A DNA stretch of 43,504 nucleotides from a virus: the IMG/VR virus record IMGVR_UViG_3300046656_000093, positions 1 through 43,504 of that record; one strand, 5' to 3'. Every line of letters starts with the position of its first letter. The stretch's first letter is position 1. Below, piece after piece: positions 4,378 through 42,157 of the stretch. The position numbers were made by a program, and so were the translations under genes. The notes under the pieces are model-generated. The model was not told the DNA's origin. It searched no databases and saw nothing but the letters and a program-made list of their open reading frames with translations.

Positions 4378-4749
4378 ATGGCAGACGTCACCGTCAAGTC
4401 TGTCGCGCCCGTGCCAGCGGATTCCTTTGTGAAGCCGAACATCGTTACGGTGCCGGCGAATCAACTCGCACAGGACTTGTTTAAAGCGGGCGGCGTATTA
4501 GCTCGGCTGCAAGTGCTGTTCGACGCCGGGCCGATTGTGCTCGATGGCGATTCGCACTCCGCTTTCTGGGTCTACGTCCAGAACGCAACAGGCTGGCAGC
4601 ATCTCGTGAGCCTCACGGATTCTCGCGACGTGGATCTTGGATGGGACGGGCAGGAGATCACGCTGAAGATCGTCGCGGCCTTCTCTTATGCCTGCTCAGT
4701 GGGCATTGGCGTCAACGTCCTCTTTCCCAGAGAGGCGAAGGTCGGCTAG
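4378..4749 (+). CDS. Unrecognised virion-module protein, beta-rich
   Basis: A 123-residue protein starting three bases after the preceding stop. It is mostly beta-prone, with conserved-looking Gly/Trp turns (WVYVQNATGWQHL), a possible small beta-sandwich. It has no transmembrane segment or known enzymatic motif. Its place between tail proteins makes a structural role likely. I do not recognise the family. Confidence 0.55.
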   Translation: MADVTVKSVAPVPADSFVKPNIVTVPANQLAQDLFKAGGVLARLQVLFDAGPIVLDGDSHSAFWVYVQNATGWQHLVSLTDSRDVDLGWDGQEITLKIVAAFSYACSVGIGVNVLFPREAKVG

Positions 4750-5484
4750 ATGGCGGTCGCCTTCAACGCGAAATCCACCAACCAGGCCCACACGGCGAGT
4801 GGCACCAGTGTGAACTTGACCACGATGACGGTCGGGTCCGGCACGAACCGAGCGCTCGTGGCGACACTCTCGTTTGACCGCCGCCACAACGCGATTGATC
4901 CAACCAGCGTCGCGCTGAGTTGGGACAGTGCCGGGACGCCGCAGTCCATGACCTCGGTGATTGCCGCCAATGGCGCCGGCACAGGCTCGACCTCAGCCCG
5001 CGCGGAAATCTGGGGATTAGTCGCCCCGACCGCGGGAAACAAAACGCTCGCGATTTCATGGACGGGCAATCAGGAAGTCTACGTGGGCGCACTCGATGTG
5101 ACGGGCGCGAGTCAGGCTGGCGGCACCACGACATTCGCCAACTCAGGTTCCACGACAGGCTCGGGCACGACGATGACGCGCGTGCAGACGAGCGCCACGA
5201 ACGATCTCAGTGTCGTGGTGTGGTGTGTCGCGCAGAACGTGTCGGCCACGACGACGCAAACGGAAGCGTATCGCAACAACACGGGCACGAACGTCTCGGG
5301 CGGTAGTTCCTACGGCGCTGGCGCGGCGACCGTCACGCATTCCTTCACCCAAGATATCAGCACGGCCTATGTGATCGTCGGCGTGGACATCGTGGTCGCA
5401 TCCTCCGGACGGACGGCGCTGAATACGCGCGCCACGAACCTCGGCATGGAAGTGGGCATGAACTGGCGTGGAGGACCGCTATGA
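4750..5484 (+). CDS. Ser/Thr-rich beta-sandwich tail protein
   Basis: A 244-residue protein abutting the previous stop. It is dominated by Ser, Thr, Gly and Ala and has alternating strand patterns (ALVATLSFDRR, KTLAISWTGNQEVYVGALDV) that look like a jelly-roll or carbohydrate-binding sandwich. It lies directly upstream of, and is coupled by ATGA to, a glycosyltransferase gene, so it is a plausible target of modification. That link is inference from position only. Confidence 0.55.
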   Translation: MAVAFNAKSTNQAHTASGTSVNLTTMTVGSGTNRALVATLSFDRRHNAIDPTSVALSWDSAGTPQSMTSVIAANGAGTGSTSARAEIWGLVAPTAGNKTLAISWTGNQEVYVGALDVTGASQAGGTTTFANSGSTTGSGTTMTRVQTSATNDLSVVVWCVAQNVSATTTQTEAYRNNTGTNVSGGSSYGAGAATVTHSFTQDISTAYVIVGVDIVVASSGRTALNTRATNLGMEVGMNWRGGPL

Positions 5485-6449
5485 ACCTGCTCCACTACAT
5501 GAAGCGAGAGAAGTCAGGACTCGCATTCACGACGCTGGAACTCGTGCAGGCCGAAGAGAAACAGGGGCATGGCGTCTGCGTCCGCGAACCGACCGACGAC
5601 AAGGGGATGCCCGGTAAGGTGCTCTACGGAAATCCCGATCTGAACTTCGACGTGGAGTGCATTCATTCGCAGATGCCGCTGCCGAGTTACTTTACGAAGC
5701 GTCCTAAGTTTCTGTGGATGCACGGAGAACCATTGTCCTCCGTGGGCAATGGCGTGTCCATGAAAGCCATTGTGGACATGGCCCCGAAAGTGGATGCGTT
5801 CATCGCCATGCGCGAGGAGGAGATGCCGATCTGGTCCTCCATCAAGCGGACCTACCGCGTCTCGAAGGGCATCGACCTGCAACGGTTTCAGCCGGTCACT
5901 GTCCCGGCGCACGACAAAGAAAATCCACTCTCAAAACTTTCAGGTGGTCCGGCCGTGCTTTACTGCGAGCACTGGCGCGGCCAGCGGAATCCGCTCTATC
6001 TGTGCGTCGCGATGGAGCGCGTGTGGCAGAAATATCCGGAAGCGCGTCTACATCTCTACAACTGCCCCGGCGGAAAGATGGGCGACACGTTCAAGGCGCT
6101 CATTCAGCACAATAAGTGGTGGGCGTTTCTCCGCACGATCAATGGGGCCGTGGCGGATGCGGATGTGAATCTGCTCTACAACCGCGCCGACATCATCGTC
6201 TCGTGTCTCGACCCGCTCTACGCCAGAAGCATCGAAGCGTTCGGCGCAGGCAAAGCCTTCATCGGTCCCGGCTACACCGATCCGGAGTATCCGCATCACT
6301 GCGACCTGCATCCGGATTCAATGGCCGATGCCATCATCAGGTGTTGGGAATCACGCGGCACGTTCGACTATCGCGCATGGGCGGAACAGAAGCATGACGT
6401 GATGAACACTGTGAAGCAGTCCATCGCGATTTACGAGAGGTATCTGTGA
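5481..6449 (+). CDS. GT-B fold glycosyltransferase (GT4-like)
   Basis: A 322-residue protein with the layout of a GT-B glycosyltransferase. The N-terminal half carries a Rossmann-like segment ending KFLWMHGEP and a sequence like that before the linker of GT4 enzymes (SKGIDLQRFQP, where GT4 proteins have NGVDxxxF). The C-terminal domain has LYCEHWRGQRNP, LHLYNCPGG and a donor-site-like DIIVSCLDPLYARSIEAFGAGKAF (acidic plus E-x7-style site). It is coupled by ATGA to the upstream tail protein and by GTGA to a zinc-ribbon gene, then a methyltransferase. It probably transfers a sugar to a virion protein. Donor and target are unknown. Confidence 0.75.
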   Translation: MNLLHYMKREKSGLAFTTLELVQAEEKQGHGVCVREPTDDKGMPGKVLYGNPDLNFDVECIHSQMPLPSYFTKRPKFLWMHGEPLSSVGNGVSMKAIVDMAPKVDAFIAMREEEMPIWSSIKRTYRVSKGIDLQRFQPVTVPAHDKENPLSKLSGGPAVLYCEHWRGQRNPLYLCVAMERVWQKYPEARLHLYNCPGGKMGDTFKALIQHNKWWAFLRTINGAVADADVNLLYNRADIIVSCLDPLYARSIEAFGAGKAFIGPGYTDPEYPHHCDLHPDSMADAIIRCWESRGTFDYRAWAEQKHDVMNTVKQSIAIYERYL

Positions 6450-6589
6450 CCACCCGTCGTCGTCTGTGGCGCTGGATCTTGCGGTCCATTCCCAATTGGC
6501 CGCATCGATACGAGGTTGTCTGCGCGAACTGTGGGCGCATTGAGCGACCGTGGGAGCGGGCCATGCTGTGCCCGAAATGTCAGCCATGA
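6446..6589 (+). CDS. Zinc-ribbon microprotein (47 aa)
   Basis: This short gene starts at GTG 6446 in a GTGA overlap with the glycosyltransferase stop and ends in an ATGA overlap with the methyltransferase start. The N-terminus is basic (TTRRRLWRWILRS). Two CxxC knuckles follow (CANCGR and CPKC), forming a one-zinc ribbon. Perfect coupling on both sides supports real translation. It may help the flanking enzymes recognise a target; that is a guess. Confidence 0.65.
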   Translation: MTTRRRLWRWILRSIPNWPHRYEVVCANCGRIERPWERAMLCPKCQP

Positions 6590-7191
6590 GCTACGCCACG
6601 ATTGACCACTTGCGCTCGCAGCTCGGAGGGACACCGAGTCCGGACCGGTCGCCGGCTTATGCCGCGAAGATGCTCCATCCAGTCCCGAAAGCCGAGACGG
6701 TGAAGCGTGAGGAGTTCATCTTGCGACAGTGTCGCGGCAAGAGGGTGCTGGAGTTCGGTGCCTCGGGCGCATTGCATCGCGCGATTGTCGAAGTGGCCGC
6801 GCTCTGCGTCGGCGTGGACCGCGAATCCACGAGCAGCGTGATCGGGTTCGACCTCGACGCCATCGGTCCAGAACTGCCGCAAGTGCCATGCGACATCATC
6901 ATCTGCGGCGAAATAATCGAGCACTTAACAAATCCTGGCTGGTTCCTGACGCGCCTCAAGCGGCAATATCCGGACGTGCCAGTTATTATCACAGTCCCCA
7001 ATGCCTTCTCACGCGCGGGAGCGGGACACATTCAGCGCGGCATTGAAAACGTCAACATCGATCATGTGGCGTGGTATTCGCCCACGACGATTGCGGCGCT
7101 CCTGACTAAGTGCGGCTACGTGGCTGGGGCGCTCTACTACTACAACGGCGACGGCCCAACGTCCGAAGGTCTCGTGGTCTGCGCGGAGTAA
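6586..7191 (+). CDS. Class I SAM-dependent methyltransferase
   Basis: A 201-residue protein; ATG 6586 overlaps the upstream stop. Motif I is visible as KRVLEFGASGALH, an acidic residue follows strand 2 (CVGVDRE), and CDIIICGEIIEHLTNPGWFL matches motif IV and the EHL signature of Methyltransf_11/23-type enzymes acting on small molecules or sugars. Downstream lies the Ser-Asp fibre gene. Given the adjacent glycosyltransferase, methylation of a transferred sugar or of the fibre is the simplest idea. Substrate unknown. Confidence 0.75.
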   Translation: MSYATIDHLRSQLGGTPSPDRSPAYAAKMLHPVPKAETVKREEFILRQCRGKRVLEFGASGALHRAIVEVAALCVGVDRESTSSVIGFDLDAIGPELPQVPCDIIICGEIIEHLTNPGWFLTRLKRQYPDVPVIITVPNAFSRAGAGHIQRGIENVNIDHVAWYSPTTIAALLTKCGYVAGALYYYNGDGPTSEGLVVCAE

Positions 7192-7194
7192 TCA

Positions 7195-8658
7195 ATGGCG
7201 CAACGCTTCTACAAAGGTCGAACAAACAATCACCTCACATGGGTGATGGTGGATGCGACGGACTTCGCGACGCCGGAATCGGCCATGTCCGCGGCCACGA
7301 AGATCAAAATTTACGGCAAGCTGCGCGGTGCGGCCGGCGTGAACTTCGTGTCCTCCGGCACCGGATCACTAACGAACGACATCACCCATGTCGGCGCGTC
7401 GGTCCTCGGGATCTACAGCATCGGCCTCGCGAAAGCCGACCTGTCTGACGCCTCGGCCGCTTGGTATGACCAATACATCATCAGCCTGTCGGCCACGGGT
7501 GCGGCATATCAGACGCTCGTAGCGGAAGGCGTGATCGATGACAGCACGACCAGCGCGGTCATCAGCGATCTCACCTCAGCATTACTCGTGATTCAGTCAA
7601 TGGCCTCAGATGCGGCGAGTGCCGCGGTGCAGGGGAACTCACGCATCCTCGTCACGCAGTCGATGGCATCTGATGCAGCCAGCGCGGCGATCCAAGCTAA
7701 CTCGCGTGTGCTGCTGAATGTATCGGTCATATCCGATCTATATTCGCTGCTCTCAGACTTCAAGTCCGACTTTCAAAGCCGAGTGCCGAAGGCCGTGGCG
7801 ACGAACTCGCAGTTGTCGGATCTGGCCTCTGACCTCAAAAGCGCCATCGCCGGAATTACGGTCACGATCAGCGCGTCCGACGTGTCAGACATTGCGTCGG
7901 CCGTCGTCGCAGGCTTGCCAGTCACGTCCGCGATCTCTGACATCTATTCGCTGCTGTCGGATTTCATGAGCGACTTCCAAAGCCGAGTGCCGAAGCGCGT
8001 CGCGACGGATAGCCAACTCTCCGACATGGCGAGCGACATCAAATCCGCTGTCCTGCTCACGCAGTCGCTCGCCTCTGATGCCGCATCGGCGGCGGCACAG
8101 GTGAACTCGCGTGTGCTGTTGGTGCAATCCAGGCTATCTGACTTCGATTCTCGCCTCGTGAGTGACGTCTCAGACATTCGCTCGATGTTGTCGGACATGC
8201 TCAGCGACTTTCAAAGCCGCGTGCCGAAAGCGGTCGCGACTAATTCGCAACTCTCTGATCTCGCGAGCGATCTACGGTCCTATCTCGTCGGCCTGAGTGG
8301 AACAGTCTCAGACATCTACTCCGGACTGTCGGACCTGCAAAGTGACTTCCAGAGCCGTGTGCCAAAACGTGTCGCGACGGATTCTCAATTAAGCGATATG
8401 GCGTCGGACGTGAAAAGCGCGGTCACCGTCGCGAATACGAATGCGGCGGCGGCGGCCTCACGGGCGCTGCTCGTGCAGTCCAGCGTCTCGGATATTTACT
8501 CGCTCTTGTCGGATGTCTCGTCGGATCTGGGTGTGATGTCAGGTGTCTTATCTGACACCTATTCATTGCTCGGCTCCACCCCCGCCGTAAACATTAAGAA
8601 AGTAAACGATGTGACGGTGGTTGGCGATGGCTCGCTTGTACCGTGGGGGCCGGCCTAA
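7195..8658 (+). CDS. Tail fibre with Ser-Asp coiled repeats
   Basis: A 487-residue protein in two parts. Residues 1-125 form a mixed alpha/beta domain (MAQRFYKGRTNNHLTWVMVD onward) like N-terminal anchor domains of phage fibres. Residues 126-475 are saturated with SD dipeptides spaced three to four residues apart (SDIYSLLSDF, SDLASDLKS), giving heptad-like periodicity consistent with a trimeric coiled coil. Four near-identical units carry the core SRVPK-[AR]-VAT-[ND]-SQLSD at residues of about 192, 260, 338 and 384. The C-terminus is a short tip. It follows a glycosyltransferase and a methyltransferase gene. Confidence 0.7.
   Translation: MAQRFYKGRTNNHLTWVMVDATDFATPESAMSAATKIKIYGKLRGAAGVNFVSSGTGSLTNDITHVGASVLGIYSIGLAKADLSDASAAWYDQYIISLSATGAAYQTLVAEGVIDDSTTSAVISDLTSALLVIQSMASDAASAAVQGNSRILVTQSMASDAASAAIQANSRVLLNVSVISDLYSLLSDFKSDFQSRVPKAVATNSQLSDLASDLKSAIAGITVTISASDVSDIASAVVAGLPVTSAISDIYSLLSDFMSDFQSRVPKRVATDSQLSDMASDIKSAVLLTQSLASDAASAAAQVNSRVLLVQSRLSDFDSRLVSDVSDIRSMLSDMLSDFQSRVPKAVATNSQLSDLASDLRSYLVGLSGTVSDIYSGLSDLQSDFQSRVPKRVATDSQLSDMASDVKSAVTVANTNAAAAASRALLVQSSVSDIYSLLSDVSSDLGVMSGVLSDTYSLLGSTPAVNIKKVNDVTVVGDGSLVPWGPA
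7768..8422 (+). repeat. Four-copy alternating repeat in the fibre gene
   Basis: Repeat units start at 7768, 7972, 8206 and 8344. Each encodes DFQSRVPK, then A or R, VAT, then N or D, SQLSD, then L or M, ASD. Units 1 and 3 are the A/N/L type; units 2 and 4 are the R/D/M type. This gives an A-B-A-B higher-order order with 204-, 234- and 138-bp spacing. The pattern suggests duplication of a two-unit block followed by a deletion in the spacer. Confidence 0.85.
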
Positions 8659-9036
8659 ATGGGGATCGGTACGTCGTGGGTGACCGGCTCATGGGTCGAA
8701 GACTCATGGTTCGACGGCTCATGGGGCATTGAAGGGGCTGGGATTACCTGCACGCTGGCGCTCACGGCCTTCGCGGCGCGGTGCGCGTTACTCGGACAGA
8801 TTGGCGAAGGGACCGCCCGTAATAACCGGCGCAATACCAGGCGGTTGACCTCGACGCGAGAAGACATCCCGATCCCGGCGGAACAGCCGGCCGAAGTACA
8901 GCAGTCGGTGCGGGCCGCGCTCTATCGGTTGGATCACACGAGTACGAAGTCCAGGATTCCACTGCCGGCGAAAGCGGAGCCGACGGTGCAGCAGTCGATC
9001 CGCGCGATTCGGAAACGATTGGAGCGGTTACCGTGA
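8659..9036 (+). CDS. Unrecognised small virion-module protein
   Basis: A 125-residue protein whose ATG abuts the fibre stop (TAA-ATG). The first 25 residues are Trp/Gly/Ser-rich with a repeated pattern (SWVTGSW, SWFDGSWG). A hydrophobic stretch follows, then a basic region with two similar segments, QQSVRAALYRLD and QQSIRAIRKRLE, each after a Pro-rich linker. It could be a fibre cap or chaperone. No family is recognised. Confidence 0.5.
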   Translation: MGIGTSWVTGSWVEDSWFDGSWGIEGAGITCTLALTAFAARCALLGQIGEGTARNNRRNTRRLTSTREDIPIPAEQPAEVQQSVRAALYRLDHTSTKSRIPLPAKAEPTVQQSIRAIRKRLERLP

Positions 9037-9392
9037 CAGAGCGTTGGCTGCCATCAGATGAGTGGGCGCAACTACAGCCGGTCTTCGTCGCGAATGGCGG
9101 GACGATGCCGTTGCCAGAGAACGGCAAGATCCGAGTGATTGAGGACGGTGGTCACGTCGTCGCGTTTATCGTCGTGCAGTATGTGCGGCACGCGGAACCA
9201 ATTTGGATTGCTGAGGATTACCAAGGGCGCGGCCTGTGGCGATCACTCTGCGCGGCGGTTGATGCGGATGCGCCGGGTTACTACCTATTTGCACCCGACG
9301 AGCGATCGGAACACATGGCGTCCGAGCTTGGCCTCGAAAAACTGCCGTGGTCAGTATTTGCCCCGAAGGGGGTGCATTCATGCCATTCCTAA
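9033..9392 (+). CDS. GNAT-like acetyltransferase fold protein
   Basis: A 119-residue protein starting at GTG 9033 in a GTGA overlap. It shows a reduced GNAT pattern: strand HVVAFIVVQYV, then PIWIAEDYQGRGLWRSLCAAV, where QGRGLW fits the acetyl-CoA pyrophosphate loop (Q/R-x-x-G-x-G/A) followed by a helix, and a C-terminal LGLEKLPWSVF strand. It is shorter than typical GNATs (about 150 residues). It lies inside the virion operon, so a virion or fibre protein is a possible substrate, but it may be inactive. Confidence 0.55.
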   Translation: MTERWLPSDEWAQLQPVFVANGGTMPLPENGKIRVIEDGGHVVAFIVVQYVRHAEPIWIAEDYQGRGLWRSLCAAVDADAPGYYLFAPDERSEHMASELGLEKLPWSVFAPKGVHSCHS

Positions 9393-9961
9393 TTCCAATC
9401 GCTGTCTCTGCGGCCTCGGCCTATGCCGGTTCGCGAGCGTCGAAGTCGAAATCGACATCGACCTCCACGCCGACGCTAAGTCCTCAGTTCAAGCCGCTAC
9501 AGGATTTGCTACTGCAACAGGCGATGTCGCGTCTACAGAATCCGACATCTTTGCAAGGCTACGAGTCACAGGGACTCAGCGGTATTAACAAGACGTTCGG
9601 CCTTGGAGATATGGCGCTGCAGGCGAGATTGCGGGCGCGTGGATTGGGCCGGTCGAACATTGCCGGCGCGGCGGATGCACGACTCGAAGGCGACCGGCTC
9701 GGCCAAATTTCGCAGTTCCAGAATGGCCTGCCATTGCTCCAGCGCGATCTGCAGAATCAGGATCTGCAGTTCGGGCAAGGGCTGCTCGGCATGGGCCGCG
9801 GTACCACCACAACTGGTACCGCATCGTCTGGCGGAGGTGCGAAGGGAGGATTGGAAGACTTAGCATCCATACTCGGCTATTTCATGGGGCAAGGCGCCTT
9901 CGGCGGCGGCAAGAAGGGTGGCGGCGGCGGTCTTCCGTTCGGCGGCGGGTATCTCAGCTAG
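9380..9961 (+). CDS. Internal virion/ejection-type protein
   Basis: A 193-residue protein; ATG 9380 sits behind a G-rich Shine-Dalgarno. It has a hydrophobic Ala-rich N-terminus (PFLIPIAVSAASAYAGS), a Gln/Leu-rich helical middle and a very Gly-rich tail (GGGKKGGGGG). Small proteins of this type precede the large internal virion proteins in many podoviruses and may form part of the DNA-ejection channel. Assignment rests on order and composition. Confidence 0.5.
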   Translation: MPFLIPIAVSAASAYAGSRASKSKSTSTSTPTLSPQFKPLQDLLLQQAMSRLQNPTSLQGYESQGLSGINKTFGLGDMALQARLRARGLGRSNIAGAADARLEGDRLGQISQFQNGLPLLQRDLQNQDLQFGQGLLGMGRGTTTTGTASSGGGAKGGLEDLASILGYFMGQGAFGGGKKGGGGGLPFGGGYLS

Positions 9962-24223: not shown

Positions 24224-25194
24224 CAGAAGGCCGGTTCGCTTTCGTCGCCAGGCTGGCGTTCCTGCTCCCACGGGGCTGTGCCCGGCGCTGGAATCGGTTC
24301 CGTGGCCTGCACTGGCTCCCACCGCTTAATCGCAAGGCACACGCGCCCATATTGGTTCGCGTTCCACGTAATCACGACGGTGGTCTCTTGCGCCTTTGAG
24401 AGCTTCGCCGTGTTGGCATGGCTCACTTCAAACGTCGAGTACGATTCGCCGTCTGCGGCCTTGATCCGAAACGGCCCACGACTGCCAGGCTTCGGTGCTC
24501 GCACGTCCACGATCTTCGTTTTCACGTCTTGGCCGGCACCGTTCGGCAGGAGTTCGCCCGTCTCGGCGTCTACGGTTTCCACGTCGGGGCGATCGAGCGC
24601 AGTTAGTACCGGGTCCATCGTCGCCGTGACGGGGCGCGGCTCTGGCTTCGGCTCGTTCGCCTGCTCCATCTCGTCACCCGTGTACAACCCCGACAACTCT
24701 TGCGGGAAGGCACGACGTAACGCGAGGCTCTCGGCACACTTCGCCAGCATGAGCGCCGGCATCCGCTTCCACAGGCCGAAGTCCTGCGCGTACGCGGTGT
24801 AGTTCGCCACGGCCCACAGTGGTTCCTTGAACGCGGTGCGATAGACACCCACCTTCGCCGCCGCGGGTGGCTTCGCCTGGAGCCATACTTCTTTCCACTC
24901 GCCGTCCTCGCCGCACCAGAACGGCCCGACTTGCCCGGCATAGTCGCCGGTCCGTTGCGCGATCAGCCGGAACCCGTCGATCGACGTTTGGATTGTCATC
25001 TTCCCGGCGCGCTTGATGGCGTAGATTTGCCGGGTAAGCGGATCGAGCCCGGTGCGCTTCGCTTGATGCAGGAACAACTTGAGTTCGTCCGGCGTCGCGC
25101 CGACAGCAATCGTCCGGGTAATCAGGTCGATCTGATCCGGCGTGAACTGCACAATCGGCGCGGCGTGCGGGACAGTGGCGAGTTCAGTGCTCAT
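24223..25194 (-). CDS. bet: Bet-family single-strand annealing recombinase
   Basis: A 323-residue protein. The N-terminal two thirds match phage Bet/Rec[53 protein letters not shown], then the terminal signature [19 protein letters not shown] and GLYTGDEM. The last 120 residues are a separate module ([18 protein letters not shown] to CLAIKRWEP) that may bind DNA or SSB-like factors. It anneals complementary single strands during phage replication and recombination. No lambda Exo or RecE-type partner is recognisable nearby. Confidence 0.85.
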
Positions 25195-29565: not shown

Positions 29566-29672
29566 TGACCTTTGTGTATTCGACGTCGATTGCGTTCGCG
29601 CTGGGCATTGTGCTGGGGGCCATCTGCGGCTATCTCATCGGGACGGACCGCGCGAAACGTGAGTCTCTATAA
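29565..29672 (+). CDS. Small membrane protein (35 aa), lysogeny module
   Basis: Starts at ATG 29565 in a TGATG overlap. One transmembrane helix (SIAFALGIVLGAICGYLIG) and a basic tail. It overlaps the integrase start (GTG 29659) by 14 bases. Third in a row of tiny coupled membrane proteins; function unknown. Confidence 0.5.
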   Translation: MTFVYSTSIAFALGIVLGAICGYLIGTDRAKRESL

Positions 29673-30732
29673 AAAGCCTGGCTCGCCCTTCTGGTGGTAC
29701 TCCATCACGCGAGATGACGACACCCGTATTCGGAAGTCCACAAAGATTCGGCACGACGCGCCAAGCAAAGACCAGCAGAAAGAAAACAGGCGTTTTGCGC
29801 TCGAAATCGAGCACGACGCGCGCATCAGTCTGAACAAGCGCGCACGTCAGGCGCCTGAGAAGCCCAGCATCGGCATCAGCGACTATCTGGTTTGGTACGA
29901 AGCTCATGTCGCGGCGCATCATAAGGGGTACATCCGCGAAGCCTCGATGCTGAAGCAGATCCGCGAGGCGCTGGGGAACAGTCCACTCCGTGAGCTCACA
30001 AAGGAACGACTGCTCGAATGGCGTACGGCGAGAGCCAAGCAGGTGAGTGCGGGGACAGTGAACCGAGAGCGTGATCTCCTGGTCGCTGCGCTCAACGCGG
30101 CAGTGCCGACCTATCTCGAGCAATCACCAGCCCAGGGTCTAAAGCGCCTCCCGCACCGTTCAACGCCGCCGGCCGTGCTCAGTCGCGAGGACGAAGGCAA
30201 CATTCTGGCCGTGCTCGAGCCACCCGACCGAGCCATCATCATCGCAGCGATCGACACGCTGGCCAGAGCTGGCGACCTCGCCAGACTCACATGGGCCGAC
30301 GACCATGGCGCCTATCTGAGTCTCAGAGACCCCAAAACAGGCAATCCGTACGAGGTGCCCATCAGCAAGCGCCTCCGGGCAGCCCTTGACGCCATGTCCA
30401 AGCAGCCAGGTGCCATCTTCAGCCACCGCCAATCAGGTAATGGCCGCCCCATGGAGTTCTGGCGCATGCTGCGTGAGGCGTGTCTCAAAGCGGGCGTGAC
30501 GGCCGGCCGGAAGCAAGGGGGCCTCACATTTCACGCGCTCAGGCACACCGGCGCGACAAGACTCGCCGCCGCAGGTGTCGACCTGAGAACACTCCAAGCC
30601 CTCGGCGGGTGGAGTTCATTGAAGCAAATAGCCCGTTACGCGCACCCGACGCAAAGCCACATGGTCGCCGCGGTTGAGACCATCGGCAAAGGCGTCCGGG
30701 TGACCAAAGTCAAAAGGTGGCGCAGAAGGTGA
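29659..30732 (+). CDS. int: Tyrosine recombinase integrase
   Basis: A 357-residue protein. GTG 29659 is preferred: from there the sequence opens SLYKKPGSPFWWYSI, a typical N-terminal arm-binding strand. The core SAM-like domain spans about 71-155. Catalytic residues are visible: Arg203 (LARAGDLARL), His292 and Arg295 (FHALRHTG), Trp318 in place of the second His (GGWSS) and Tyr327 (ARYAHPT). It mediates integration of the phage at attP/attB. Confidence 0.85.
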   Translation: MSLYKKPGSPFWWYSITRDDDTRIRKSTKIRHDAPSKDQQKENRRFALEIEHDARISLNKRARQAPEKPSIGISDYLVWYEAHVAAHHKGYIREASMLKQIREALGNSPLRELTKERLLEWRTARAKQVSAGTVNRERDLLVAALNAAVPTYLEQSPAQGLKRLPHRSTPPAVLSREDEGNILAVLEPPDRAIIIAAIDTLARAGDLARLTWADDHGAYLSLRDPKTGNPYEVPISKRLRAALDAMSKQPGAIFSHRQSGNGRPMEFWRMLREACLKAGVTAGRKQGGLTFHALRHTGATRLAAAGVDLRTLQALGGWSSLKQIARYAHPTQSHMVAAVETIGKGVRVTKVKRWRRR

Positions 30733-37246: not shown

Positions 37247-38296
37247 ATGCCCGCAGGATCTCTCACTCTCAGTTACAACGACGTCCTTTCCACGACCATC
37301 TTCAACTGGGCGCGGACGCTGGCCGATCAGATCACGACGGCCAATGCGTTCTACTACCTATTGAAGCAGCGTGGGGCCTACAAGACCACGAGCGACATCG
37401 GCGATCGCAAACAGCAGCCGCTGCGCTACGAGAACGGTGTCGCCCAGCCCTACTCGGGCTACGACATCCTTGACACGACGCCGACCGACGGCATCACCTC
37501 CGCCTTTTTCGATTGGCGGCAGGCGAGCGTCCCGGTCTCCATCGATGGCCTGAGCGAACGCAAGAACTCCGGCGAAGCCCGGATGATCAACCTGCTCGAG
37601 TCCAAGACCCAGCAGGCGGAAGACGGGATCGTCGAGTTCTTCAATCGCTCGTTCCTACGCGGCGCTGGTGGATCGTCCATCACATCGGCCGCGACGAGTC
37701 CACTGACGGGGGCGGCGTTCATTGACCCCTTGCCGCTCTTGGTCAAGTACGACCCGACGACCTCGACGACCATTGGCAACATCAATCAGTCGACGAATAG
37801 TTGGTGGCAGAACCAGACGCTCAACTCGACCTCGAGTAGCTTCGCGGGCTTCCGCAAGGAATTGCGGCGCCTCCGGAATCTGTGTTCGAAGGGGTCGGGC
37901 GGTGAACCGGATCTGCATATGTGCGATCAGGGCAGCTTCGAGCTCTATGAGCAGGCCCTGACGACACTGCATCAGAACCCGTCGTACCGCACGGCCGACA
38001 TCCCGTTCCAGAACCTGCTGTTCGATGGCCGGCCACTGACCTGGGATGAGTTTGTGGTCGATGCGCAGGGCGGCAGCGCCACGCAGTCCACGACCTCGGG
38101 CACTTGGTACATGTTGAATACCAAGTTCTTCGAGATCGAAGTCGACGAAACTCGCAACTTCACGGCGACGCCCTTTGTGAAGCCGGAAAACCAAGACGCG
38201 CGCACCTCCCAGATTCTCTGGCTGGGCGCGGCCTCCGTGTCAAACCGTCGCAAGCACGGTGTGGCGGGCGGCATCGACACGACCATCACTTCGTAA
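37247..38296 (+). CDS. Major capsid protein
   Basis: A 349-residue protein between scaffold and decoration genes. An N-terminal arm (LTLSYNDVLSTTIFNWARTL) is followed by a P-domain-like region (KNSGEARMINLLESKTQQAE; FNRSFLRGAGG), a mid region with a long helix (FAGFRKELRRLRNLC) and LTWDEFVVDAQGG, then a C-terminal strand (RNFTATPFVKPENQDART). It fits an HK97-fold capsid subunit. No delta domain for cleavage is obvious. Confidence 0.8.
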   Translation: MPAGSLTLSYNDVLSTTIFNWARTLADQITTANAFYYLLKQRGAYKTTSDIGDRKQQPLRYENGVAQPYSGYDILDTTPTDGITSAFFDWRQASVPVSIDGLSERKNSGEARMINLLESKTQQAEDGIVEFFNRSFLRGAGGSSITSAATSPLTGAAFIDPLPLLVKYDPTTSTTIGNINQSTNSWWQNQTLNSTSSSFAGFRKELRRLRNLCSKGSGGEPDLHMCDQGSFELYEQALTTLHQNPSYRTADIPFQNLLFDGRPLTWDEFVVDAQGGSATQSTTSGTWYMLNTKFFEIEVDETRNFTATPFVKPENQDARTSQILWLGAASVSNRRKHGVAGGIDTTITS

Positions 38297-38333: not shown

Positions 38334-38765
38334 ATGACATTCCAGAGAATCAACCGTACGGACCCCGAGAAGGTCTTCGCGATCTACCAGAACTGCACCG
38401 CGGCCACCACGGCGGCCGGTGATGCGGCACAGCTCGACACGGGCACGCTCGACGGCATTCGTGCCGTCAAGCCGACCACGGCCGGACTGTCGCTCATTCT
38501 CGGCTGCTGGGCGACGGCCTACGCCAATTCGAGTTACGGCCTCGTGCAGATCTACGGCCTGAACTCGGACGCGACCGTGGTCGGCAACACGTCAACTGCC
38601 TACGCGGCAGGAGACATCCTCCTGCCCGTGAATGCTGTCGTGGCGTTTGCGCGGTCGGCGGCCTCGACAGGGACGGGCGGCTTCGTCTTCGCCGGCGCGG
38701 CCGTGGGCACCGTCACCAACACGACTGCGGTCGCGTCTGGTGGCGTGTTCCTGAAGTGCATGTAA
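38334..38765 (+). CDS. Capsid decoration/cement protein
   Basis: A 143-residue protein after the capsid gene. Ala, Thr and Gly-rich with beta-strand periodicity (GLVQIYGLNSDATVVGN; AGDILLPVNAVVAF) and many Ser/Thr, the profile of head decoration proteins. It directly precedes the modification cassette, so it is a candidate target of it. Inference from composition and order. Confidence 0.6.
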   Translation: MTFQRINRTDPEKVFAIYQNCTAATTAAGDAAQLDTGTLDGIRAVKPTTAGLSLILGCWATAYANSSYGLVQIYGLNSDATVVGNTSTAYAAGDILLPVNAVVAFARSAASTGTGGFVFAGAAVGTVTNTTAVASGGVFLKCM

Positions 38766-38777
38766 CAGACCCAACAG

Positions 38778-38810
38778 ACGGAGGACGGGGCATCGCGTCC
38801 CGTCCTCCGT
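38778..38810. promoter_or_regulatory. Perfect 12-bp stem-loop between decoration gene and radical SAM gene
   Basis: ACGGAGGACGGG (38778-38789) and CCCGTCCTCCGT (38799-38810) form a perfect 12-bp stem with a 9-base loop. No T-run follows (gcgcttagg), so it is a poor intrinsic terminator. It may be an mRNA stabiliser, attenuator or processing site separating the abundant capsid message from the enzyme cassette. Confidence 0.8.
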
Positions 38811-39624
38811 GCGCTTAGGAGGTTCTCTGTTCGTACAAATCGAAGCGATCGCCGTCTGTAATGCGGCATGTGTCTTCTGCCCGTATCCCACGATGACGCG
38901 CAAGCGTGGGCTGATGAGCATGGACCTGTTTCACAAGATCGCGGATGAGGCCATCAGCATTCCGATCGTGAATGCGATCGTGATTACCGGCCTCGGAGAA
39001 CCGCTGCAAGACAAGTTTCTCTTTGACCGGATTGAGTACATTCGCCAACGATCGCCGGGTATTGGGATCGAGCTCGTCACGAATGGGCAACTCCTGACGC
39101 CGCAGAAGATCGACGCACTCCGTGACGCTGGCTTGACGAAGATGTCGGTGAGTTTGAACGCCGTCACGCGCGAACGTCGGATCGCGATCATGAAACTCGA
39201 CGATTTCGATCATGTGGTCGCGATGTGCGACTACGCGATTGCTCATGGTCGGCCCATGAACGTCATCGTGAAAGCCGTCTGCGGGCCGGATCTCATGAAC
39301 GGCGCTGAACTGACGGCATTTCAGGCCCGTTGGGGCGTGAATGCCTTCCTGCACAGCGAAGGCAACTGGGCGGGCGAAACGTGGATGCCGCGGACACCGC
39401 CCCATCAGGCATGTTCACGTCCATCCACACAGATCATGGTGCTCCATGATGGGCGTGTGTCGCTCTGCTGCTTCGATGGCGAGGGGAAAGAGATTCTCGG
39501 GGATTTGAACACGCAATCAATTCGCGAGGTGTTTAATGGGACCCGCGCGACAGACATCCGCATTGCGCATCGCGACGGACGGAGACACGAGATTGAGGTG
39601 TGCAAACACTGCACAGCGATATGA
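38809..39624 (+). CDS. Radical SAM enzyme with SPASM-like C-terminus
   Basis: The CNAACVFC motif (C17, C21, C24 from GTG 38809) binds the 4Fe-4S cluster; FVQIEAIAV precedes it as strand 1. GLGEPLQD is the GGE-like SAM-binding motif, then the TIM-barrel strands. The C-terminal region ACSRPSTQ...SLCCFDG...CKHC resembles a SPASM/twitch auxiliary-cluster domain, used for peptide or sugar modification. GTG 38809 lies in the hairpin; AGGAGG at 38817-38822 points to CTG 38827 as a likely start. Substrate unknown. Confidence 0.75.
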   Translation: MRLGGSLFVQIEAIAVCNAACVFCPYPTMTRKRGLMSMDLFHKIADEAISIPIVNAIVITGLGEPLQDKFLFDRIEYIRQRSPGIGIELVTNGQLLTPQKIDALRDAGLTKMSVSLNAVTRERRIAIMKLDDFDHVVAMCDYAIAHGRPMNVIVKAVCGPDLMNGAELTAFQARWGVNAFLHSEGNWAGETWMPRTPPHQACSRPSTQIMVLHDGRVSLCCFDGEGKEILGDLNTQSIREVFNGTRATDIRIAHRDGRRHEIEVCKHCTAI

Positions 39625-40238
39625 GCACACTCCTCGCGCCATCTGAGCCGGTCTACGCCGAAGACTGGTTTTCGCACGCGATCCCCGCGTGGACGGCGAT
39701 GCTCGCGCATCTTCACCCCCATCGCCAGCCGCGGCTATTAGAGATCGGGGCCTTTGAAGGCCGCGCGACCCGTTGGATGCTCGAGCATTTCCCGAAGGCG
39801 CACGTGACGGTCATCGACCCGTTCACGGGCGGGTCGGATCAACAGCATCTCGACCTGATGAATTTGCGTGGGCGCTTCGATCACAACACGGCGCCATTTC
39901 GTGATCGTCTCCGCGTGATGCAGGACACGAGCGCGAAGGTGCTGCCGATCTTGCTGACAGGTGACTGGCGATTTGACTTCATCTACATCGATGGGTCGCA
40001 TGAGGCCGCCGACGTCCTGTTCGATGCGGTCTGTGCCTTTCGCTTACTCACGGACGACGGCCGGATCTGTTTCGATGATTTCTGTTGGGGCCTCGGCCAT
40101 CCCGGCTATCGGCAGGAATATCTACCGCGCGCCGCCATCATCCCGTTCCTCGCAACGCACGGGGATCGGGTGACGATGCCGCGGCCTCCGAATGAACAGC
40201 TCTGGATTGCTCGCATTCCCACTCAAGGAGTGGCATGA
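39621..40238 (+). CDS. SAM-dependent methyltransferase (Methyltransf_24-like)
   Basis: A 205-residue protein; ATG 39621 overlaps the radical SAM stop (ATGA). Motif I is LLEIGAFEGRATRWM, motif II VTVIDPFTGG, then YIDGSHEAADVLFDA and GRICFDDF, matching Methyltransf_24 enzymes acting on sugars or small molecules. It is coupled to the next gene (ATGA). Its partners suggest methylation of a sugar or protein side chain on the virion. Confidence 0.75.
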   Translation: MSTLLAPSEPVYAEDWFSHAIPAWTAMLAHLHPHRQPRLLEIGAFEGRATRWMLEHFPKAHVTVIDPFTGGSDQQHLDLMNLRGRFDHNTAPFRDRLRVMQDTSAKVLPILLTGDWRFDFIYIDGSHEAADVLFDAVCAFRLLTDDGRICFDDFCWGLGHPGYRQEYLPRAAIIPFLATHGDRVTMPRPPNEQLWIARIPTQGVA

Positions 40239-40531
40239 GACCTGACCCGCGGATTGATCCGGCAACCGGCGTGGACCCCTTGAAGGGGTGGGATTTCTTC
40301 CGCTGCTTCAAGTGCCATCGACTGCTCACGCGGCTCGAGGTACTGGACGGCCTGAAGCATCGTCAGGGCCAGTCATGCCCGTGCGGGTCGCTCAATGTCA
40401 GTCCGTCCAATGGCCCGGCAGCGGTCATGGATGATGCGTCGCGGTTCGCGTGGTGGCTCTACATGCTCACCCCGTGGCGGCACTGGTCGATCTGGAAGTT
40501 CACGCTCTTGCGGGAACTCGGTCGCGCATGA
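40235..40531 (+). CDS. Zinc-ribbon protein (98 aa)
   Basis: Coupled on both sides by ATGA. CFKCHRLL with SCPCGSLN forms a zinc ribbon after a Pro-rich start; the C-terminal half is amphipathic and Trp-rich (FAWWLYMLTPWRHWSIW), perhaps membrane-associated. A counterpart lies in the other modification cassette (6446-6589). Function unknown. Confidence 0.6.
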   Translation: MRPDPRIDPATGVDPLKGWDFFRCFKCHRLLTRLEVLDGLKHRQGQSCPCGSLNVSPSNGPAAVMDDASRFAWWLYMLTPWRHWSIWKFTLLRELGRA

Positions 40532-41196
40532 GTGTGATCCTCGCATCCCCGACGTATCAGGCGGTCGCGCCGGTCTGTCGCGATGGGATGATCGTGTCCG
40601 CGATGTACGCCGCGAATCGTGGCGTGAAGTGGCACAGCCTCGCGGACATTCATTCCAAGCAGACGACGATTGATGATGTGCGGAACCGGATCGTGCGGGC
40701 GGCGATTAAGGTGGCCGAGACGGATGACGTGCAAGGGATCGCCTGGATCGATTCCGACATTAGCCCGAAGCCAGATGGGCTCTACCGGCTGATCGAATCC
40801 GGCAAAGACTTCATCACCGGCATCTACACGCACCGCTCGTCCACTGGCGAGCCTGTCGTGGGGTTTCTCGACCCGCGGGCGAACGGCGGAAAAGGCGCGG
40901 TGGCCTGGATGCAGGAATGGCCGGCCAACACGATCGCCCCCGTCGATTGCTGCGGCTTCGGTATCGTCTACACGTCCATGCGGATGCTGCGGCTCATGTC
41001 GGACCCGTGGTTCTCATTCGGGGATTTGTCGGAGGACTTCACGTTCTGCGTGCGGGCGAAAGCGGCGGGATTTCAACTCTACGTCGATACGGCCGTGACG
41101 TGTGCCCATGTGGGCGATCCGCACGAGTTCACGGTCGAAGCGTATCAGGCGCGCTATCGCGCGAAGCAGAAGGATGCGGCACGCTCTGCCGCCTAG
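40528..41196 (+). CDS. GT-A-type glycosyltransferase
   Basis: A 222-residue protein coupled by ATGA. SVILASPTYQAVAPV opens the GT-A Rossmann-like fold; IAWIDSDISPKPDGL carries the DxD-like D-S-D; VDCCGFGIVYTS and SEDFTFCVRAKAAGFQL match the acceptor-side ED motif of phage GT2/GT21-like enzymes. It probably transfers a sugar to a virion protein using a UDP or GDP sugar. Donor unknown. Confidence 0.7.
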   Translation: MSVILASPTYQAVAPVCRDGMIVSAMYAANRGVKWHSLADIHSKQTTIDDVRNRIVRAAIKVAETDDVQGIAWIDSDISPKPDGLYRLIESGKDFITGIYTHRSSTGEPVVGFLDPRANGGKGAVAWMQEWPANTIAPVDCCGFGIVYTSMRMLRLMSDPWFSFGDLSEDFTFCVRAKAAGFQLYVDTAVTCAHVGDPHEFTVEAYQARYRAKQKDAARSAA

Positions 41197-41204
41197 GAGA
41201 CGAT

Positions 41205-41507
41205 ATGGCTGGACTCGATCCGCTACAGAAGTTTGAAACGCTCGTCTTTCAGAAGGTGGGCGAGCGCACGACCGCGTTCGGCGTGAAGATGGTCTATCGG
41301 CAGTTGCCCTACAAGTACGTCGAGTATGACGGCAACCCGCAACGCTTCATCGAGCCGATTGCGACCGCGACAAATCCCGCACAGACCGTCGTTCAACTCG
41401 ATGCGATCGGGGGGCAAGTTGTCGGGTGGGAAATCGTGGACGGCCGCGCCATGACCGGGTTCTCGATGGGCGAAAAGATCGACCCCACCAGTCCCACCGG
41501 GTTCTAA
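41205..41507 (+). CDS. Small virion-module protein (100 aa)
   Basis: ATG 41205 sits behind taggagacgat, a strong Shine-Dalgarno, so it restarts translation after the modification cassette. An alpha/beta sequence (KFETLVFQKVGERTTAFGVK; MVYRQLPYKYVEYDG). Position between capsid and adaptor genes suggests a head-completion protein. Confidence 0.5.
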   Translation: MAGLDPLQKFETLVFQKVGERTTAFGVKMVYRQLPYKYVEYDGNPQRFIEPIATATNPAQTVVQLDAIGGQVVGWEIVDGRAMTGFSMGEKIDPTSPTGF

Positions 41508-41509
41508 CG

Positions 41510-42157
41510 GTGACGAAGGCGGAGATCCGCACGAAGGTGTTGCGCCAGTTGCGCCAACAGAGTGCGGGTGTGCCGTTTTCCGAAGACGAGATCGACGAAT
41601 CCATCGATGCCGGATATACGGAGATGAGCGATGCCTCTGAGTGGAACGAAGTCTGGCAGACGGTCAATCTTCTGGCTGATCGACCTTATTACGATGCTCG
41701 TACGGTGCTCGGCCAGAATCTCTTGGCGATCGGCCCTGCGTATTCGACGGAGACGAGTCGATGGTTGCAGCCTGTGGTCGTGGGGGATCTGGACGGTGGT
41801 GATCGACGGTGGGAGTCGGTCGTTTCGCCCGCCGCCGCCCCCAATCAGATTTTCACGCGCGGCCTCTGGTGGTTCGGCTACTACCCGCGCGTCAGTACCG
41901 ATCTGGGCTCCGTCAAGCAGTACTTCACCGCCATCCCAGAAGCGTTGGAGGATGACGACGAGCCGGGATTCATCTCAGAATTTCACGATGGGTTGGTCGA
42001 ATACGCCGTCTACGACCTGTGGGCACAAGCCGGGGAAGCCGACCTTGCATTGAGCGCATGGACGCGATACGCAGCGATTGAGTCTGAACTGACGAAACAC
42101 ACGCAGGCGCGCGGTGGTCGCGCGAGGGTCGCTGGCTATGCCCCGCATCCGCACTGA
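41510..42157 (+). CDS. Head-tail adaptor (P22 gp4-like)
   Basis: A 215-residue protein from GTG 41510. The helical N-terminus KAEIRTKVLRQLRQQ, then FSEDEIDESIDAGYTEMSDA, matches adaptor and gp4/DUF6682-like proteins that sit below the portal. Beta-rich middle (LQPVVVGDLDG; WWFGYYPRVS) and a helical C-terminal end (LVEYAVYDLWAQAGEADLAL). It is expected to seal the portal and hold the tail hub. Confidence 0.65.
   Translation: MTKAEIRTKVLRQLRQQSAGVPFSEDEIDESIDAGYTEMSDASEWNEVWQTVNLLADRPYYDARTVLGQNLLAIGPAYSTETSRWLQPVVVGDLDGGDRRWESVVSPAAAPNQIFTRGLWWFGYYPRVSTDLGSVKQYFTAIPEALEDDDEPGFISEFHDGLVEYAVYDLWAQAGEADLALSAWTRYAAIESELTKHTQARGGRARVAGYAPHPH

Follow-up and report, generated by a model that had tools for sequence, protein, structure and literature searches.

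A radical SAM and glycosyltransferase cassette beside the decoration gene of an uncultured phage, and its possible role in virion glycosylation

The IMG/VR record IMGVR_UViG_3300046656_000093 is a bacteriophage from an uncultured clade, and the stretch analysed here, referred to as the window, comprises its positions 1-43,504 (43,504 nucleotides). Within the head-gene operon, between a decoration protein gene on the left and the gene for an SU10-type head-tail adaptor on the right, are four open reading frames (ORFs) at 38809-41196 that are joined by ATGA overlaps at 39621, 40235 and 40528 and encode a radical S-adenosylmethionine (SAM) enzyme, a methyltransferase, a zinc-ribbon protein and a glycosyltransferase (GT). 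A preliminary description had reported these four overlapping genes and their placement between decoration protein and adaptor; the ORFs lie where it put them, and the two neighbours are supported by the AlphaFold/Foldseek fold of the former and a Pfam match of the latter. We consider this cassette a candidate virion-glycosylation module. The features of the locus are as follows.

37247..38296, + strand: major capsid protein (phrog_9953; PHROGs E 8.1e-45), one of the queries for related loci
38334..38765, + strand: decoration (cement) protein, Thr/Ala-rich, the proposed glycan acceptor (AlphaFold and Foldseek); homologues lie upstream of the cassette elsewhere
38778..38810, + strand: GC-rich stem-loop with a 14-bp stem and 5-nt loop (shuffle-tested hairpin score)
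38809..39624, + strand: radical SAM/twitch (half-SPASM) enzyme, BtrN-like (Pfam; profile against the Protein Data Bank, PDB)
39621..40238, + strand: SAM-dependent methyltransferase, Methyltransf_24 (Pfam)
40235..40531, + strand: zinc-ribbon protein with a Trp-rich, amphipathic tail (invariant Cys; Zn_ribbon_Com below cut-off)
40528..41196, + strand: GT-A glycosyltransferase (family profile, AlphaFold/Foldseek, invariant residues)
41205..41507, + strand: small protein in the gap between cassette and adaptor, with homologues in other loci (locus comparison)
41511..42157, + strand: SU10-type head-tail adaptor, bounding the cassette site on the right (Pfam SU10_adaptor 9.4e-9)

The start of the decoration gene was corrected to the ATG at 38334. 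The start of the radical SAM gene is ambiguous: GTG 38809 abuts the stem-loop, and a strong Shine-Dalgarno motif, AGGAGG (38817-38822), precedes CTG 38827. Elsewhere in the window are genes for an integrase (29572-30732) and RecT (24226-25194), and because of these the phage is probably temperate.

The cassette proteins

The first protein matches Pfam Radical_SAM (PF04055) at 2.9e-20 (73.5 bits, cut-off 29.5) and SPASM at 9.5e-14 (51.9 bits, cut-off 21.5), and the cysteines of its CxxxCxxC motif (C17, C21 and C24) are kept in all 44 homologues covering these positions, bearing out the preliminary assignment to the radical SAM enzymes. The end that had been called SPASM-like is, more exactly, a half-SPASM or twitch domain, with C202-X12-G215-X4-C220 followed by C265xxC268 three residues from the stop; this agrees with the twitch pattern CX9-15GX4C-gap-CX2C, with a single auxiliary cluster and the second SPASM half missing. 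The best PDB match of the family profile is BtrN (9.6e-24), spanning both core and twitch, with a runner-up at 7e-10, and the window protein on its own also retrieves BtrN first (4.5e-14) and cytosylglucuronate decarboxylase second. Peptide-modifying enzymes match the profile weakly (SkfB 2.5e-3, YydG 4e-4).

Distant relatives of the enzyme adjoin CMP-sugar synthetase genes (CTP_transf_3) in L041, L044 and the Helicobacter locus L047, and those of Helicobacter also adjoin class-III aminotransferase and GFO_IDH oxidoreductase genes, while another, in L040, adjoins a DegT aminotransferase and further GT-like genes. Since BtrN is the nearest solved relative and the distant relatives stand beside sugar-nucleotide genes, a carbohydrate is, on these sequence comparisons, rather probably the substrate. 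Residue C221, next to the auxiliary-cluster ligand C220, is present in 42 of 46 homologues. As cited in PMC10991966, the radical SAM sugar epimerases HygY, a twitch enzyme by the title of its paper, and NeoN (Cys249) have an outcome that hinges on one cysteine. Because C221 is kept and these epimerases rely on a donor cysteine, epimerisation might by analogy be predicted, and we consider the chances of epimerisation and oxidation evenly balanced.

Several side observations concern this family. The Helicobacter relatives (L046 7353-8324; L047 5357-6127) lie in sugar-nucleotide clusters, and in L077 (2498-3250) a second radical SAM gene occurs between portal and scaffold genes. The L040 cluster (4720-9446) holds the DegT aminotransferase, a Methyltransf_24 gene, GT-like genes, the radical SAM gene and a GT, and because it directly precedes an SU10-type adaptor gene, the pre-connector site seems to be a recurrent home of glycan genes.

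The second protein is a Methyltransf_24 enzyme (PF13578, 6.5e-16, 59.6 bits against a cut-off of 26.3), in agreement with the earlier assignment, and our search found no close viral relatives of it. The METHYLTRANSFERASE slot is occupied by Methyltransf_24 in the window and by Methyltransf_11-type enzymes, at varying positions, in most other loci. Elsewhere the GT is itself fused to a methyltransferase domain (L001, L118, L119, L068, L088 and L126, Pfam-confirmed for L118 and L068). Both GT-MT11 and GT-MT24 fusions occur among the loci, and in L111 no methyltransferase was recognised. This retention of a methyltransferase step through unrelated families argues that methylation belongs to the function of the cassette. 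A further GT-methyltransferase fusion lies upstream of the scaffold gene in L049 (935-2080).

The window GT itself falls below the Pfam glycosyltransferase cut-off (E 0.03, 14.5 bits against 27), and its relatives match Glycos_transf_2 at 7.6e-6. The family profile matches the GT-A structure of STIV A197 (6.7e-4), and the AlphaFold model (predicted local distance difference test, pLDDT, 85) finds A197 as its best Foldseek match (8e-10), followed by COLGALT1 (1e-8), with LH3, Mnn9 and the PBCV-1 capsid GT among further matches. Invariant residues include a DxD motif (D75, D77), ED (E169, D170) and H194. Hence the GT-A enzyme of the preliminary description is upheld by its fold, the family profile and the invariant D75/D77. 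The ORF encodes about 220 amino acids and no additional domain. Extended cassettes carry more GT genes, namely L009 (9693-10475 and 12285-13016; GT2 and PLOD-type) and L036 (977-1708; PLOD-type, the collagen hydroxylysine GT domain).

The zinc ribbon, including the Trp-rich tail noted previously, has the form CxxC...CxCG, with C24, C27, C48 and C50 invariant in nine homologues. In many loci its gene runs into the start of the GT gene, and in one clade it comes immediately after the GT; from this linkage we guess that the protein serves the GT as an accessory. Com regulates translation of Mom in phage Mu, and a Com-like zinc ribbon might here regulate a GT and methyltransferase that hypermodify DNA, on which phage GTs frequently act. 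The zinc ribbon does resemble Zn_ribbon_Com (PF10122; 2.8e-4) and overlaps the GT start in the appropriate manner. However, the match is below cut-off (20.7 against 22.9 bits) and found in one of nine homologues, in one clade the gene follows the GT, the zinc ribbon/GT junction showed no special RNA structure (z -0.94 to 1.5 in seven loci), and no nucleotide-modification partner was recognised among the window genes scanned. We consider DNA modification very improbable.

Recurrence of the cassette beside the decoration gene

Searches of viral contigs with capsid, GT, radical SAM and decoration queries returned approximately 180 loci, many of them overlapping. After capsids had been collapsed at 90% identity and loci with less than 3.5 kb of downstream sequence dropped, 57 non-redundant loci were left. 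Two assignments were corrected by hand, L001 being taken as decoration-positive and L053 as cut by a contig end; L121, which has a very divergent decoration-like gene (25 bits), was counted as negative. The radical SAM gene occurs in 20 of the 57, nearly always with the GT, methyltransferase and zinc ribbon, and 19 of these 20 fall in one well-supported clade of the capsid tree. Examples of loci with the set in place between the decoration and adaptor genes are L002, L004, L006, L007, L009, L013, L022, L023 and L025, and likewise L028, L048-L051, L056, L060, L062 and L071. The preliminary description had proposed recurrence of the four-gene order as a check on the cassette, and about 20 related phages do have the set at this site. 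Its remark that it appears unusual for a phage head module to encode a radical SAM enzyme stands for sequenced isolates, among which 50,697 records gave one weak match to the window enzyme, but not for this uncultured clade, where such genes are regular. As a single-protein query against viral contigs the radical SAM enzyme had no match, but capsid and alignment searches did find relatives, and a scan of genome collections for prophage hosts returned only the distant Helicobacter enzymes of sugar clusters.

The presence of the GT goes with that of the decoration gene. Of 44 decoration-positive loci, which span long capsid divergence, 43 have the GT, and none of the 13 decoration-negative capsid loci does; the exception, L053, has the radical SAM, methyltransferase and zinc-ribbon genes, and its contig ends before the adaptor. 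Two loci of the radical SAM clade have no cassette, L008, with other decoration-type genes, and L121, with only its very divergent gene. Among phages with a P22-type coat, L032/L033 show an independent pairing, in which a GT-Methyltransf_24 fusion lies beside a related radical SAM gene after a putative decoration gene.

By sequence, the decoration protein matches no family. Its AlphaFold model (pLDDT 88) finds phage decoration or cement proteins as nearly all of its top Foldseek matches (HFTV1, Pam3, T1, lambda gpD, P21 SHP and TW1), with modest E-values of 1.8e-3 and weaker and a probability of 1.00; by this predicted fold and its place after the capsid gene, 38334-38765 is assigned as the decoration gene. 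Directly 3' of its stop codon, the stem-loop at 38778-38810 has a hairpin score of 37.5 against a shuffled maximum of 21.5. In 29 of 49 loci, against about 2.3 expected, the stem-loop after the decoration gene scores above each of 20 dinucleotide shuffles; the corresponding counts are 3/46 after the GT, 1/31 after the adaptor and 14/47 after the capsid gene. Stems vary in sequence among loci and their position is kept. The structure could plausibly set the enzymes apart from the structural genes, as a transcript boundary or an attenuator, or it could stabilise the upstream message. An intrinsic terminator was not called here, simple scans having given no matching terminator or promoter.

The cassette might instead be a moron at a hypervariable site, with a function in host metabolism and a link to the decoration gene that reflects shared descent. 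Gene content is variable, homing-endonuclease-like genes occur in the same gap, and the linkage rests on only three or four independent pairs. Against these points, the GT is kept with the decoration gene across long capsid divergence, the methyltransferase slot is refilled by unrelated families, and the same pairing occurs in phages with P22 coats, so that we regard a moron as unlikely. The HNH or endonuclease-VII-like genes in the decoration-cassette gap, recognised by eye (L002 6369-6881; L119 8494-8991), suggest homing into the cassette site.

What the cassette may modify

The reading that we prefer, with a probability of about 0.5, is a virion-glycosylation module in which the radical SAM enzyme edits a sugar, which is placed on the decoration protein by the GT and capped by the methyltransferase. 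It draws on the recurrence at a fixed site, the linkage of GT and decoration genes, the predicted decoration fold, BtrN as the nearest solved relative and the resemblance of the GT model to glycoprotein GTs, including that of the PBCV-1 capsid. The preliminary description had likewise proposed a modified sugar on a virion protein, an idea that is strengthened, short of confirmation, by the enzyme identities, the recurrence, the co-occurrence of GT and decoration genes, the retained methyltransferase and the sugar-type relatives of the radical SAM enzyme. That the GT acts on a virion protein is likely; that the decoration protein is the main acceptor we favour by a little.

In such a module the cassette would be expressed late, with the stem-loop 3' of the decoration gene holding the dose of enzymes below that of structural proteins. 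The BtrN-like twitch enzyme would edit a sugar either on its nucleotide carrier or after transfer, the 5'-deoxyadenosyl radical abstracting a hydrogen atom from a ring carbon; return of hydrogen by a cysteine would give an epimer, and uptake of an electron by the auxiliary cluster a keto sugar. The GT-A enzyme, with the zinc ribbon as its accessory, would move the sugar from its nucleotide carrier onto a decoration-protein side chain, where the methyltransferase would O-methylate it as a cap. The acceptor, the sugar, the order of steps, the radical SAM reaction and the roles of zinc ribbon and hairpin are what we infer from the genes.

Several points weigh against this. The decoration homologues share no invariant Ser or Thr, and the Asn that is nearly invariant does not make an obvious sequon. 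Similarity to BtrN identifies a family and not a reaction, and radical SAM families switch substrate class easily. Because L001, L118 and L119, within the radical SAM clade, lack the enzyme and keep GT and methyltransferase as a fusion, the radical SAM enzyme is not essential to the module. The independent GT/decoration pairs number three to four, all in one direction and not significant (sign test, p 0.25), and with so few events linked inheritance alone could explain the co-occurrence. Finally, the cassette is known from gene sequences, and no relative that carries it is known in culture.

The acceptor could also be altered before it is glycosylated, as in collagen, where lysine is hydroxylated and then galactosylated. 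The radical SAM enzyme would then modify a decoration or capsid side chain directly, in the manner of a sulfatase maturase or of the enzymes for ribosomally synthesised and post-translationally modified peptides, and the GT and methyltransferase would decorate that residue. SPASM and twitch enzymes include peptide modifiers, of which SkfB and YydG are weak matches here; COLGALT1 and LH3 are among the structures that the GT model resembles, and L009 and L036 carry GTs of the PLOD type. Decoration proteins from radical SAM-positive loci moreover share R44 (20/20, against 5/27 of the others) and G117 (19/20 against 3/27). These differences follow one clade, however, and descent alone may account for them; among solved structures the closest relative acts on a cyclitol and peptide enzymes match far less well, the distant relatives have sugar-nucleotide neighbours, and the GT is common without the radical SAM gene. 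Such direct modification is accordingly doubtful. Somewhat less so, and still unlikely, is a broader variant in which the enzyme would act on the decoration protein or on an attached glycan, creating a residue or sugar new to virions that GT and methyltransferase extend or cap.

Alteration of host surface polysaccharide (O-antigen) for superinfection exclusion is how GT and radical SAM genes of pelagimyophages have been interpreted (PMC7029224), and a probably temperate phage with an integrase might benefit similarly. Yet the cassette occupies a fixed head-operon site downstream of the decoration gene and tracks its presence, the GT is a protein of about 220 amino acids without an extra domain, and no flippase or polymerase was named in the cassette; we judge this explanation improbable, slightly more so than a moron.

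If virion glycosylation is correct, phages make non-standard, methylated, radical-edited shell sugars with a cassette of four genes that is linked to a decoration protein, and phage virion glycosylation reaches beyond mycobacteriophages. Some unexplained radical SAM genes of phage genomes would gain a role, and the cassettes would offer compact enzyme sets for rare sugars on proteins.

Comparison with known systems

In mycobacteriophages Che8, Corndog and Myrna, phage-encoded glycosyltransferases act on subunits of the capsid and the tail tube (Freeman et al. 2023, as relayed in PMC12363180). A phage-encoded GT linked to structural genes is common to both systems; here, a radical SAM enzyme and zinc ribbon are added, the probable acceptor is the decoration protein, the phage group is another and the evidence is genomic. 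Among single enzymes, BtrN, a 2-deoxy-scyllo-inosamine dehydrogenase (PDB 4m7s, 4m7t), shares the core and the twitch domain with one auxiliary cluster but has Phe where the phage family has its near-invariant C221. HygY and NeoN act on carbohydrates, and C221 of the phage family would be a candidate counterpart of their donor cysteine. STIV A197 and the PBCV-1 capsid GT are likewise virus-encoded and of GT-A fold, but belong to other virus groups and have just 12-16% identity. Like Mu Com, the window zinc ribbon is small and encoded beside a modification enzyme; unlike Com, it falls below the Pfam cut-off, is not always upstream and has no leader structure that we could see.

Radical SAM genes have been reported from phages before, as an oddity in clusters of Campylobacter phages CP220 and CPt10 (PMC2853527) and, together with GTs, in islands of pelagimyophages that serve host recognition (PMC7029224), but these are interchangeable modules or host-recognition islands rather than a compact, decoration-linked cassette. 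Virion glycosylation by phage enzymes is thus the known background of this candidate system. The open-access literature searched held no description of a head-module cassette that includes a radical SAM enzyme, and the new part is such an enzyme, related to the antibiotic-sugar enzyme BtrN, in a cassette that recurs at one head-module site in uncultured phages.
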